DNA of 64,000 nucleotides from Phycisphaeraceae bacterium D3-23 (GTDB lineage Bacteria; Planctomycetota; Phycisphaerae; Phycisphaerales; Phycisphaeraceae): assembly GCA_039555135.1 (NCBI GenBank), contig CP114179.1:1488001-1552000 (forward strand). The letters are read 5' to 3'. Both the position numbers and the translations under genes were made by a program. Below the pieces are notes generated by a model. It was given only the letters and a program-made list of their open reading frames with translations. It was not told the DNA's origin and searched no databases. Positions 4,202 through 8,348 of this stretch are shown piece by piece; position 1 is the stretch's first letter; every line of letters starts with the position of its first letter.

Positions 4202-6307
4202 CTACTCCCCGCCGCTCTCCGCCGGCGTCGCCTGGCCCGGGGCATCCGGCATCGACTCGAAGTAGTCGCGGATGCTGTCGTGGTAGCGGCGCGGCACGCG
4301 GTCTTCGGTCACGGCCCGCTCGGCGGCGCTGCGCGCCTCGGTCACGGCGTGGTTGTACTCGACCTGCGCCTCACCCGACGCCATCTCGCCATTTTCGGTC
4401 CACGACGCGATGACCCGGCCTTCGCCGTTCTGGATGTCGTTGGCGGCGTGGGTGTTCGTCGGGTTGTAGGTCGAGTGCTGGCCGTACGGGTTGCCGCCCG
4501 AGCCGGTGCCCCACTGCCCGGGGGTGCCGCCCTGGCCACCCTGCTGGTTGAGCTGCTGCATGGCCTGCTGCATCGACTGCTGCTGCTGCTGCATGCGTTG
4601 GAGCTGGTTCTGCATCTGCGCCATCTGGTTGAGCGCCTGCTGCGCGGACTGGCCGCCGCCTTGGCCCTGTTGGCCCTGGCCTTGCCCTTGGCCCTGTCCT
4701 TGTTGGCCTTGCTGTCCCTGTTGGCCTTGTTGGCCTTGCTGCCCCTGCTGTCCTTGTTGGCCCATCTGCTGCGCCATTTGCGAGAGCCCCTGGGCGAGCT
4801 GCTGCTGCATCTGCCCGGCCTGTCCCTGGCCCTGTCCCTGCTGCATCTGTTGTTGTAGCTGCTGCGTCATTTGCTGCGCTTGCTGCTGCGCCTGCTGCTG
4901 GCTCATGCCCTGCTGCTGGAGTTGTTGCTGCAGCTGCTGCTGCATCTGTTGCATCTGCTGCGGGCTGGGCTGCTGACCGCCGGGCTGCTGGCCGCCCTGT
5001 TGTTGCTGGCCCTGTTGACCTTGTGGCTGACCCTGCTGCTGGCCTTGTTGGCCCTGGCCCTGCTGTTGCTGCTGGCCTTGTTGCTGGCCCTGCTGGTTTT
5101 GCTGGCCCTGGTTCTGTTGGCCCTGCTGGTTTTGTGGGTTCTGCTGGCCCTGCTGCTGCTGGTTCTGCGGGTTCATCGCGTTCTGCATCTGCTGGGTCAT
5201 CTGCTGCGCGGTTTGCTGCGCCTGCTGCTGGCTCATGCCGCTTTGCTGCAGCTGCTGCTGCAGGTTCTGCTGGGCCTGCTGCTGTGCGTTCTGCTGGGCC
5301 TGCTGCTGGTTCTGGGCGTGCTGCTGCAACTGCTGCGCCAGATTGTTGAGCTGCTGCTGTGCCTGCTGGCGCTCCTCATCGGTCATGTCTTCCGCGTTCT
5401 CGATCTGCTCCTCAAGCTCTTCGATCGCCTCGGCCGCCTGCTCGAAGTCGTTACGCCGCATCGCGGACTCGAACGCGCTCGCCGGGCCGTCCATCCCCGA
5501 GTCCAGCTGGCTGTTGCTGTTCTCCAGCGGGCGGTAGGTCGCCTCGACCACGTCCGACTCCTGCGCCAGCCGGCTCTCCTCTTCGCTCGCCAGCGCCGCG
5601 GCCTCGCGCAGCAGTTCCTCGGCCCGCTCGGGGTTCGCGCGGATCTCGTCCGACAGCGACACCATCTCTTCCTCAAACGCCGACAGCTCGCCCTCGGCGA
5701 ACTGCGCCTCCTCGGGGTCCTCGCCCTCGGGCAAACTCTGCGTCGTGTTGATGATGATCTCCTCGGCCTGCTCCGCGATGCGGATCTGCTCTTCCTTGGC
5801 CTCCTGCTTGGCGACCTGCTCCAGCGGGTCGGCCTCGGGCACGAACACGGCCGCGACCACCAGCCCCATCACGACCGGCACGAAGTTCCACACCTTCGTG
5901 AAACGCATCGGCACGGCCTGGGCCACCATCGTCCCGGCGCGCTGCGCCGCCTGGTCCGCTTCCTGCGCGACCTGCCGGGTCAGCTCGGTCTGCTCGGGCA
6001 GCGTCTGCGTGTAAAGGGCCGTGCCCAGCTTGTCCTTGAGTTTCAGCTTGTCATCGAGCAGCACCGCCGCGTCCGCATCGCTCGGCATCGCGCGCAGCGC
6101 CAAGAGCGCCGCGCCCACCACGCCGATCGCCAACGGGATCGCGTACGCCCACAGCGGCACGTAACGAAGCGGCAGCATCTGGTCCGCCACGCGCATCACA
6201 CACGCGGCACAGAGCGCCAGCAGCAAGCCCCAGCCCAGCCAGTGCACCATCGACACCCACACCACACGCCGCTTGGCCTTGGCTACGCTCCGCTGGATCG
6301 AGGTCAT
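4202..6307 (-). CDS. DUF4175-like membrane protein with long Gln-rich tract
   Basis: A 701-residue protein. Two N-terminal membrane helices (about 19-40 and 50-70) and a third near 138-155 are followed by an acidic helical region (about 160-300). A very long Gln-rich region spans about residues 306-586, made of QQQ, QQGQQG, QQQAQQ and SQQQAQQ units and mostly coded by CAG. The C-terminal 100 residues are normal in composition. DUF4175 (TIGR02302-type) proteins share this plan of N-terminal helices and a Q-rich tail, so I assign it there tentatively. It heads the minus-strand group with the nucleotidyltransferase and VWA genes, a context like MoxR/VWA clusters. The Gln tract is unusual in length and could drive self-association. 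Confidence 0.65.
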   Translation of the reverse strand: MTSIQRSVAKAKRRVVWVSMVHWLGWGLLLALCAACVMRVADQMLPLRYVPLWAYAIPLAIGVVGAALLALRAMPSDADAAVLLDDKLKLKDKLGTALYTQTLPEQTELTRQVAQEADQAAQRAGTMVAQAVPMRFTKVWNFVPVVMGLVVAAVFVPEADPLEQVAKQEAKEEQIRIAEQAEEIIINTTQSLPEGEDPEEAQFAEGELSAFEEEMVSLSDEIRANPERAEELLREAAALASEEESRLAQESDVVEATYRPLENSNSQLDSGMDGPASAFESAMRRNDFEQAAEAIEELEEQIENAEDMTDEERQQAQQQLNNLAQQLQQHAQNQQQAQQNAQQQAQQNLQQQLQQSGMSQQQAQQTAQQMTQQMQNAMNPQNQQQQGQQNPQNQQGQQNQGQQNQQGQQQGQQQQQGQGQQGQQQGQPQGQQGQQQQGGQQPGGQQPSPQQMQQMQQQLQQQLQQQGMSQQQAQQQAQQMTQQLQQQMQQGQGQGQAGQMQQQLAQGLSQMAQQMGQQGQQGQQGQQGQQGQQGQQGQGQGQGQGQQGQGGGQSAQQALNQMAQMQNQLQRMQQQQQSMQQAMQQLNQQGGQGGTPGQWGTGSGGNPYGQHSTYNPTNTHAANDIQNGEGRVIASWTENGEMASGEAQVEYNHAVTEARSAAERAVTEDRVPRRYHDSIRDYFESMPDAPGQATPAESGGE

Positions 6308-6511
6308 GGCTGGTTCCTTTGTGTTGAAGCCCTCGGAAACAAGATCGGCCGATTACGGGCCCCCGCTCAACCGATGCGCGGCCGGGCATCCTTCTATGTA
6401 GACGCACGACGCGCCCAATCGATCCCACAGGCCGACAGCCGGGCGTAACCCCGGCCACCCCATCTTAGCCCTCCCCGGCCCGGCATACCACTATTGTCCC
6501 GCAATACACCC

Positions 6512-6622: not shown

Positions 6623-7219
6623 CTACTCCGTGTCCTGCTCGATCACCGTCGCCAAGGCCTCCATGATCGCCTCGCTGCCGGGGCGGGTGCGGACCGTGCC
6701 GCCCAGCTCCGCGCGGACGACGCCGGCGGGGTCGAGGATGTAGGTCTTAAAGCCCTCTTGGCTGTACGCACCGGTCACCGCCGCCTCATAGTCGGTCAGC
6801 AGCACGATGCCCGGGCCGACCTCGGCGCGGACTTTCGTGAGCCCGCCGACCCCCTCCTCATCTTCACGGAACACACTCACGATCTTGGCGTCGAGGTCAT
6901 CGATCTCACCGACCGCGTCCTGCAGCTCACCGAGCTGGCGGAGGCAGAACGGTCACCAGTGCCCGCGGTTGAAGACGAGAACGACGTAGTGGTCGGCGTT
7001 GAGCTGTGACAAGGCCTGCGGCGTATCGTTGTCGTCGGTCAACTCGAAGCCCGGCGCGACCCGGCCGAGTTCGACCGTGCCGTCGGCTTCCATCGCCGCG
7101 GGGCCGGTGTTATCGGTATCGGTGCCTGTTTCGGTTTCGGGCTCGGCGTATGTCACCGTATTCTGCGAGCCACAACCCAACAGCAGGCAGAACGTCGTCA
7201 ACAGGGCAAACAGTCGCAT
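6623..7219 (-). CDS. Redoxin/peroxiredoxin-like lipoprotein, predicted selenoprotein (UGA = Sec)
   Basis: The reading frame is interrupted by one TGA at 6955-6953. Read through, it gives a 198-residue protein with a lipoprotein signal (LCLLLGC-type lipobox: TTFCLLLGC), a linker rich in Thr/Glu, then an AhpC/TSA-redoxin domain. The TGA falls exactly where the family has its first active-site Cys: NRGHW-[TGA]-PFCLRQL corresponds to the usual RGxWCPFCxxQL. Downstream residues (KIVSVFRED, TYILDPAGVV) continue the fold without a frame change. A hairpin just after the TGA looks like a bacterial SECIS. The start at 7219 is chosen because GGAG lies 6 nt upstream and it gives a clean signal peptide. 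The likely role is reduction of peroxides or disulfides at the envelope. A plain nonsense mutation is the alternative, but the position and hairpin argue against it. The selA/B/C/D genes are not in this window. Confidence 0.85.
6916..6955 (-). promoter_or_regulatory. Candidate bacterial SECIS element
   Basis: Counting from the base after UGA on the minus strand, nucleotides 2-8 pair with 31-37 (7 bp, one G-U). Nucleotides 9-15 form a bulge. Nucleotides 16-21 (CAGCUC) pair with 25-30 (GAGCUG), closing a GGU loop at 22-24. A G-containing apical loop about 16-37 nt after UGA, on a stem closed by G-C pairs, is what SelB recognises in known bacterial SECIS elements such as E. coli fdhF. The structure was folded by eye. 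Confidence 0.75.
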
Positions 7220-7418
7220 CGGGAGCTCCATCGGTGTGATCGTTGCGTACACCCATGCAACGCGCCCACGCAGCCGGATATTCCACCGCATCCCGATGAC
7301 CCGCGCCACCATTGCCACCCGCAGGCCTCAACAAGTTGAAAAACTTGCAGTCGCGCGGCTTATCCCGCCTACCTAAGCCGCCGATAACGGCCAGGACGAG
7401 GCGCGGAGAGCAGACCCT

Positions 7419-8348
7419 ATGGCAATCGAAACCTGTCAGTTCCGAGTGGTCGGTGTCGACATGGACACCGGTGAAGACGTGTCGGTCGTGATCGAGGCGG
7501 CGACCAAGGCGGCCGTCGAGGTCAAGGCCGAGAAGATGAATATCGACACGACGCACATCGTCCGCATGAAACGCGCCGACGACTTGGTCGCCGACGAGCA
7601 CACGCAGTACCTGCTCGACGCGGCCGAGGCACGCTCGACCACCCCGACCGACAAGCTCATCGAAGAAGTCGTCCCGCCCGAGACGCCGCGCGAAACGCTG
7701 ACGCCCGCGCCCAAGCCCAAGCCCGCCGCGCTGACGCCGCACGTACCGGCCCCGGCGCCGCCGCCCGCGCAGGAGCCCGTCGTCCTCGCCGCGGTGAGTC
7801 GGCCCAACTACGCCTCACCCAGCGTGAAGTGTTCGGGCCCCAGGCCCACCGGCAAGAGCGCGCTCGTGTTCGTCGCCGCCGTGCTCTTCGGCATCGCGGC
7901 CGGGGGGTACTACGTCCTGGTCCAGCAGCCGATGTCCGCCAACGCCGACGAGGCCCTGCTCTACGGCGACGACCTGTTCGACGCCCCCGACACCGACGTC
8001 ACCCAAACGCAAAACAGCCAGCAGCCCCGGCTCAACAACGCCAACGCCTTTGGCCAACGCCCGGGCAACACACCCAACGCGACATCCAGCCATGCGCAGC
8101 AGCCGACGACGAACAACGCCGCACAGGGCGAGCGCCCCGCGCCGGCCACGCAGCGCGTCCGGCTCGAGCTCCAGTCCGTCGTCGTCAGCCACGAAGGCCG
8201 ATTCGCCGTCATCAACGGCAAGCTCACCCCCCAGGGTGACACCGTCGCCGGCTGCAAACTCGTCAACGTCGCCGACGACTGGGTCCTGATGGAACACGAC
8301 GGCGAACAGTTCATCCTGCGCATCATCCCCAACACGCCCGGGCAGTAA
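7419..8348 (+). CDS. Unknown single-pass membrane protein
   Basis: A 309-residue protein that I do not recognise. The first 60 residues (ETCQFRVVGVDMDTGED...) look like a small folded cytoplasmic domain. A Pro/Ala/Lys-rich linker follows (PAPKPKPAALTPHVPAPAPP). One membrane helix lies near 147-168 (SALVFVAAVLFGIAAGGYYV). An Asn/Gln-rich stretch leads to a C-terminal domain of about 55 residues (VRLELQSVVVSHEGRFAVINGKLTPQGDTV) that resembles the PilP/GspC-type periplasmic hairpin domain, similar to the PilP-like gene near 58 kb. GGAGAG lies just before the ATG. It is monocistronic, with a terminator right after it. Confidence 0.6.
   Translation: MAIETCQFRVVGVDMDTGEDVSVVIEAATKAAVEVKAEKMNIDTTHIVRMKRADDLVADEHTQYLLDAAEARSTTPTDKLIEEVVPPETPRETLTPAPKPKPAALTPHVPAPAPPPAQEPVVLAAVSRPNYASPSVKCSGPRPTGKSALVFVAAVLFGIAAGGYYVLVQQPMSANADEALLYGDDLFDAPDTDVTQTQNSQQPRLNNANAFGQRPGNTPNATSSHAQQPTTNNAAQGERPAPATQRVRLELQSVVVSHEGRFAVINGKLTPQGDTVAGCKLVNVADDWVLMEHDGEQFILRIIPNTPGQ

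Follow-up and report, generated by a model that had tools for sequence, protein, structure and literature searches.

A redoxin gene on the minus strand of the Phycisphaeraceae bacterium D3-23 chromosome is interrupted by one in-frame TGA, and the question raised by this locus is whether the gene is broken by a stop codon or is intact and reads that codon as selenocysteine (Sec). The gene lies in a stretch of 64,000 nucleotides (contig CP114179.1, positions 1,488,001 to 1,552,000), hereafter the window, for which an earlier note had suggested a selenoprotein. The analyses described here indicate that the gene is very probably intact, its internal stop being read as Sec. It almost certainly encodes a redoxin lipoprotein with the active site Sec89-Pro-Phe-Cys92, in which the UGA would be decoded by SelB and tRNA-Sec under the direction of a hairpin (Table 1).

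Table 1. Coordinates of the features of the redoxin locus (window positions) and of the TGA redox genes beside selC in relatives (positions within the named loci).
Feature	Location	Strand	Remark
Redoxin lipoprotein gene (predicted), 198 aa with UGA read as Sec (U89)	6623..7219	-	ATG at 7219, TAG stop 6625-6623
In-frame TGA, proposed Sec codon	6953..6955	-	residue 89, U89 of U-P-F-C
TGC, Cys92	6944..6946	-	second residue of UxxC, aligned with the 'afspvC' Cys of PDB 2cx3
Shine-Dalgarno-like GGAG	7226..7229	-	candidate from the sequence, 5' of the ATG at 7219
Hydrophobic signal and lipobox-like LLGC (Cys16)	7166..7219	-	putative, as read from the sequence
SECIS-like apical hairpin	6923..6937	-	stem nt 16-21/25-30 after UGA, loop GGU nt 22-24
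Whole predicted 51-nt fold with lower stems	6905..6955	-	z -2.22
Three kinds (T-U-P-P-F, W-U-A/Q-G-C, U-P-F/Y-C) beside selC	L073 4140-7915		
Three kinds (T-U-P-P-F, W-U-A/Q-G-C, U-P-F/Y-C) beside selC	L072 4062-8010		
Two kinds beside selC	L071 4647-7267		
Two kinds beside selC	L080		by motif
One kind beside selC	L077, L078, L081		by motif; 5' part of the L077 redoxin gene runs off the contig

Re-reading of the frame confirmed that TGA is its sole internal stop and that it falls at the first Cys of the redoxin motif, in the context N-R-G-H-W-U89-P-F-C92-L-R-Q-L, exactly as had been noted. The protein begins with a hydrophobic segment that contains a putative lipobox-like LLGC, with Cys16 as its cysteine; a linker and the redoxin domain follow. 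With the TGA read as Cys, the product matches the Pfam families AhpC-TSA (PF00578, 54.3 bits, cut-off 26) and Redoxin (PF08534, 33.7 bits, cut-off 26.6). Scored with a profile made from 39 homologues that have Cys, the whole protein reaches 100.3 bits, with 35.8 bits for residues 1–88 and 42.1 bits for residues 90–198 taken separately. Since the latter part matches the profile by itself, the redoxin sequence carries on in frame past the TGA, and the claim of good redoxin sequence on both sides holds. The predicted splitting of the gene by standard gene calling was also borne out, for a listing of open reading frames of at least 80 aa cuts it into ORFs of 121 and 85 aa.

Between positions 6300 and 7500, no terminator-like sites were found on the strand of the redoxin gene and no promoter-like sites on either strand. 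AlphaFold2 prediction of the window protein together with three alphaproteobacterial Cys relatives gave a mean pLDDT of 37.8 and was left unused. The adjoining gene (window 4202-6307, minus strand) encodes a 701-aa protein with long glutamine-rich stretches, and its DNA can be aligned to the syntenic region in G002, a genome of the same genus.

The host genome, a single contig of 4.62 Mb, contains all four genes of the Sec machinery; a lack of selB or selC would, according to the earlier note, have spoken against a Sec reading. They are selA (TIGR00474, 522.5 bits, cut-off 267.9), selB (TIGR00475, 361.5 bits, cut-off 242.25), selD (TIGR00476, 367.1 bits, cut-off 125) and selC, which was recognized both by the tRNA-Sec model RF01852 (65.3 bits, gathering 47) and by ARAGORN, as a tRNA-SeC with anticodon TCA. 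These genes span about 8.4 kb of the same chromosome as the redoxin gene, in the order selD (3,621,249), three ABC transporter genes, selB, selA (3,628,330) and selC (3,629,527). By its gene content, the host is able to decode Sec. TGA also ends ordinary genes: it is the stop codon of selB, of selA and of three neighbours, and selD, besides its internal TGA, ends in one too. Among 14 genes inspected, the stops are TAG in five, TGA in five and TAA in four, with TGA in none of the eight checked within the window. PEP-CTERM-like and prepilin-like proteins would fit a planctomycete host.

Three other features of this genome were observed. The transporter between selD and selB (L010 313-4031) is a putative selenate ABC transporter; its binding protein passes the model for a putative selenate ABC transporter substrate-binding protein (TIGR04553, 264.5 bits, cut-off 250), and its PhnC- and PhnE-like partners fall below the cut-offs of their models. 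The selD gene (L042 1477-2532) is itself a TGA gene, with the motif DCGG-U-AGK, a predicted hairpin after the TGA and an ordinary TGA stop. A second TGA redoxin, TlpA/ResA-like and with the TGA in F-F-A-T-W-U-G-P-C, was found at L032 (C1:4519993-4520505). Its G002 counterpart is 82% identical and keeps the TGA; past this codon, the two genes differ at 7, 6 and 30 first, second and third codon positions over 99 codons, so that the frame downstream of the TGA looks selected.

The exchange of TGA and Cys at the same site was followed among relatives. A search of 400 genomes from the same order gave matches to the window protein at E 1e-6 in 90, and matches with one TGA occur in six of them (the host of the window, G326, G331, G058, G368 and G123). 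When the best 28 matches were translated, the site was TGA in five and Cys in 23; close relatives lacking both residues, which the earlier note had named as contrary evidence, were not found among these. Related loci retrieved from genome contigs have Cys at the site in three of three cases. A profile of the six TGA proteins, searched against 392 genomes of the phylum, returned further TGA matches, with one more in G237. Altogether 35 loci were scored, the window's included, and the first position of the motif is TGA in 22 (21 of the 34 others) and Cys in 12, L128 having no motif; TGA rows without a scored locus, such as the second ones in G594, G529 and G498, lie outside these counts. Homologues with neither U nor C were seen among weaker, more distant matches, namely L128 and L021, the latter a peroxiredoxin-type protein without Cys at the site.

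The TGA form goes with SelA. In the order, SelA is present in 25 of the 400 genomes: in five of the six with TGA matches versus one of the 84 with TGA-free matches only (Fisher p 8e-7, on the assumption that both surveys drew the same 400 genomes), and the association persists without the window's genome (p 1e-5). The link is one-way: by profile search, W-U-P-F/Y-C was found in six of the 25 genomes with SelA in the order, and also in G331. In the phylum set, which covered 24 of the 28 genomes behind L105–L132 (G749, G400, G054 and G437 left out), SelA reaches at least 350 bits in 14 of 15 TGA genomes, with none in G544. Among nine genomes taken for a short Cys form of the protein, one has SelA at 424 bits, six have weaker SelA-family matches (104–240 bits) and two have none. 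The line of 350 bits was drawn after seeing the scores, and all 21 matches pass the Pfam cut-off. Overall, the TGA-locus genomes without SelA are two of 22, G331 and G544, both of them many-contig drafts.

The hairpin proposed as a SECIS element stood in part. Its GGU loop and stacked stems are present as described, with a 6-bp upper stem (CAGCUC/GAGCUG) atop further stems. The fold of the 40 nt after the TGA, suggested as a check, prefers a different structure, and the described hairpin is given by the 51-nt fold, with an MFE of -24.8 kcal/mol and a z of -2.22 against dinucleotide shuffles (5 of 200 as good). A stem this long arises in 16% of synonymous-codon shuffles of the window locus (P 0.16), and by itself this hairpin is weak evidence, unlike its recurrence throughout the family. 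Requiring an ungapped stem of at least six pairs, G-U allowed, with a loop of 3–7 nt around nt 22–24, we found a stem at the SECIS position in 21 of 22 TGA loci versus three of 39 Cys loci, the Cys rows having been chosen for a motif that has Cys there (L128 and the 12 loci L014–L025 left out). Because the encoded Q-L-x-x-L itself favours palindromes, the comparison was made with shuffles of synonymous codons, which over 2000 rounds gave a mean of 5.5 and a maximum of 12 of the 22 TGA loci, and a mean of 1.8 of the 39 Cys loci. The exceptions among TGA loci are L129, without a hairpin, and L126, in which it is shifted and the loop lies at 23–29.

In the alignment of the 22 TGA rows, 91.6% of cells are paired and five of seven pairs have changed on both sides, the pair next to the loop turning from C-G to G-C in eight rows. 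At 0.308, covariation scores higher than in any of the 500 shuffles, which ignore the relatedness of the rows (mean 0.152, sd 0.023). Slid versions score lower (0.022–0.114), one of them also with five pairs changed on both sides. A hairpin of the bacterial SECIS type, with G or GU in the apical loop shortly after the UGA, is therefore present family-wide. A scan of the window at the Rfam gathering thresholds found nothing; Rfam is not known to hold a general bacterial SECIS model, and an empty scan would then be expected.

A 61-row tree places the window protein as sister (support 99/83) to nine short Cys redoxins of the same phylum, with the motif W-C-P-F/Y/A-C (L111–L116, L118, L119 and L121). 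These form its nearest clade and differ from it in having Cys at the place of Sec; a stem of at least 6 bp occurs at the site in three of the nine. The enclosing clade (support 100/97) comprises 27 rows, 18 Sec and nine Cys, and the Sec/Cys label needs two changes on it. The tree was rooted at its midpoint, which does not give the direction of these changes, and a Sec-to-Cys loss in the short clade would be the simplest reading. Identity between the window protein and its relatives ranges from 24% to 38%, the highest value being that with L114. Three Cys redoxins (L115, L116 and L118) have a 7-bp hairpin with a GUC or GUU loop at the SECIS position; we do not claim them as SECIS relics, as 24–33% of synonymous shuffles do as well and all three belong to one genus.

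A decaying Cys gene would also account for the interrupted frame, if a point mutation had lately created a nonsense codon that lies at the active site by coincidence. No TGA-bearing match to the window protein was found in four genus mates. In one of these, G002, which has SelA, the flanks of the locus align with window positions 4245-6338 (78% identity) and 7380-8332 (72%) and lie about 0.33 kb apart, versus about 1.04 kb in the window, with no redoxin found between them. The gene is thus dispensable, and may have been either gained in the window's genome or lost in G002. The branch of the window protein (1.43, the second longest of the 27-row clade) also fits decay. Against this, the single TGA falls exactly where 21 other loci carry TGA, the frame has no further stop, its downstream half still scores as a redoxin and the genome holds a full Sec machinery, so we regard decay as very unlikely. 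Some bacteria read UGA through a near-cognate tRNA-Trp or a reassigned code, and readthrough by such a route would leave the gene intact without Sec. We give this still less credence, given the tRNA-Sec with a TCA anticodon, the use of TGA to end ordinary genes of this genome and the residue at the site in the 23 TGA-free matches among the best 28, which is Cys in all and Trp in none. Reading the UGA as Sec, as the earlier note had thought likely, is supported by the sel genes, the family-wide exchange of TGA and Cys, the covarying hairpin and the co-occurrence with SelA.

From sequence, we infer Sec insertion, membrane anchoring and the chemistry of the redoxin as follows. SelB and tRNA-Sec, guided by the hairpin 16–30 nt 3' of the UGA, would decode this codon as Sec, and the product would be a short extracytoplasmic redoxin lipoprotein, anchored as its lipobox-like start suggests. 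Sec89 would act as the nucleophile, standing where the thioredoxin-type CxxC has its N-terminal Cys, and Cys92, presumably the position of the peroxidatic Cys of peroxiredoxins, would resolve the selenenylsulfide. A thiol/selenol oxidoreductase that forms a selenenylsulfide is likely, given the place of Sec89 and the alignment of Cys92 with the Cys of 2cx3. The protein could also be a real selenoprotein that works mainly as a peroxidase of the peroxiredoxin type, a reading that bears on its chemistry alone and agrees with Sec insertion. The thiol peroxidase group of 2cx3 is its sole solved sequence relative at E <=0.001 (E 2.5e-4), the 'afspvC' Cys of which lies under Cys92, and PF00578 is matched. 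On the other hand, U89 corresponds in position to the first Cys of CxxC, the ResA-type model PRK03147 is matched too, at 22 bits where its cut-off is 170, and the peroxidase model PRK09437 is matched as weakly (20.4 of 140 bits). We lean modestly towards disulfide or repair chemistry; a chiefly peroxidatic role is a substantial possibility, somewhat less favoured.

Selenoproteins of this kind have been predicted before. Table 1 of a 2026 review (PMC13188914) lists a predicted 'Prx-like thiol:disulfide oxidoreductase' (PF00578, UxxC/UxxU) and a predicted 'Redoxin family protein' (PF08534, UxxC), and both entries recur in a 2022 review (PMC9312934). Table 2 of the GOS survey counts 225 Sec (UxxC) and 2,740 Cys sequences of Prx-like 1 (PMC2398784), and Sec machinery and selenoproteins have been reported in planctomycetes (PMC4807772). 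The window protein shares PF00578 and UxxC with the first of these families as listed (compare Prx-like 1), a likeness by domain and motif; its lipoprotein-like start is its own particular. The Redoxin family also matches above its cut-off, but PF00578 is the better match. As UxxC Prx-like selenoproteins are already listed, the window protein, with its predicted Sec, is a further member of a predicted kind. Membership in the SelL-related proteins (NF040769) was rejected, the window protein reaching 30.4 bits of a cut-off of 120; all six members of alignment A1 match that model weakly (best E 8.5e-9). The TxxU peroxiredoxin selenoproteins were rejected as well, Sec being at the first position of the motif and Cys92 at the second.

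In three relatives (G326, G123 and G058), two or three TGA-containing redox genes lie beside selBAC. In G326, selC is followed by a deiodinase-like gene with T-U-P-P-F, a W-U-A-G-C gene and a U-P-F-C redoxin gene, which share their strand with selBAC. All three kinds recur in G123, and the deiodinase-like and redoxin ones in G058. The sel-linked redoxins have about 120–130 more residues before the Sec than that of the window. When 15 sel loci were scanned by motif, seven had one or more of these kinds and eight had none, the sel locus of the window's genome being among the eight. The deiodinase assignment rests below the Pfam cut-off (21.1 bits of 27, one protein tested), as do the TPR repeats of the G326 W-U-A-G-C protein (one protein tested). 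No description of such a cluster was found in the titles and abstract starts returned by literature searches, in passages of PMC13188914, PMC4807772, PMC9312934 and PMC2398784, or by word search of PMC12013277, a small negative and not a proof. We tentatively propose, as a possibility that we consider less likely than not, that in these relatives the deiodinase-like protein, the thioredoxin-like W-U-A-G-C protein and the U-P-F/Y-C redoxin form an extracytoplasmic Sec-dependent redox module next to selB-selA-selC, perhaps a selenol/thiol relay that helps to keep Sec decoding alive. The window lipoprotein would then represent a short form standing by itself, with its nine nearest short Cys redoxins derived from Sec ancestors.

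The sel-linked TGA redox genes of the three relatives are a more original result than the window gene, which adds one more instance of a single redox site where Sec and Cys are exchanged. As a plain ORF list splits the redoxin gene, the use of selenium by this lineage is easily missed. The sel-linked gene clusters give a testable hint of what may maintain Sec decoding in these bacteria.
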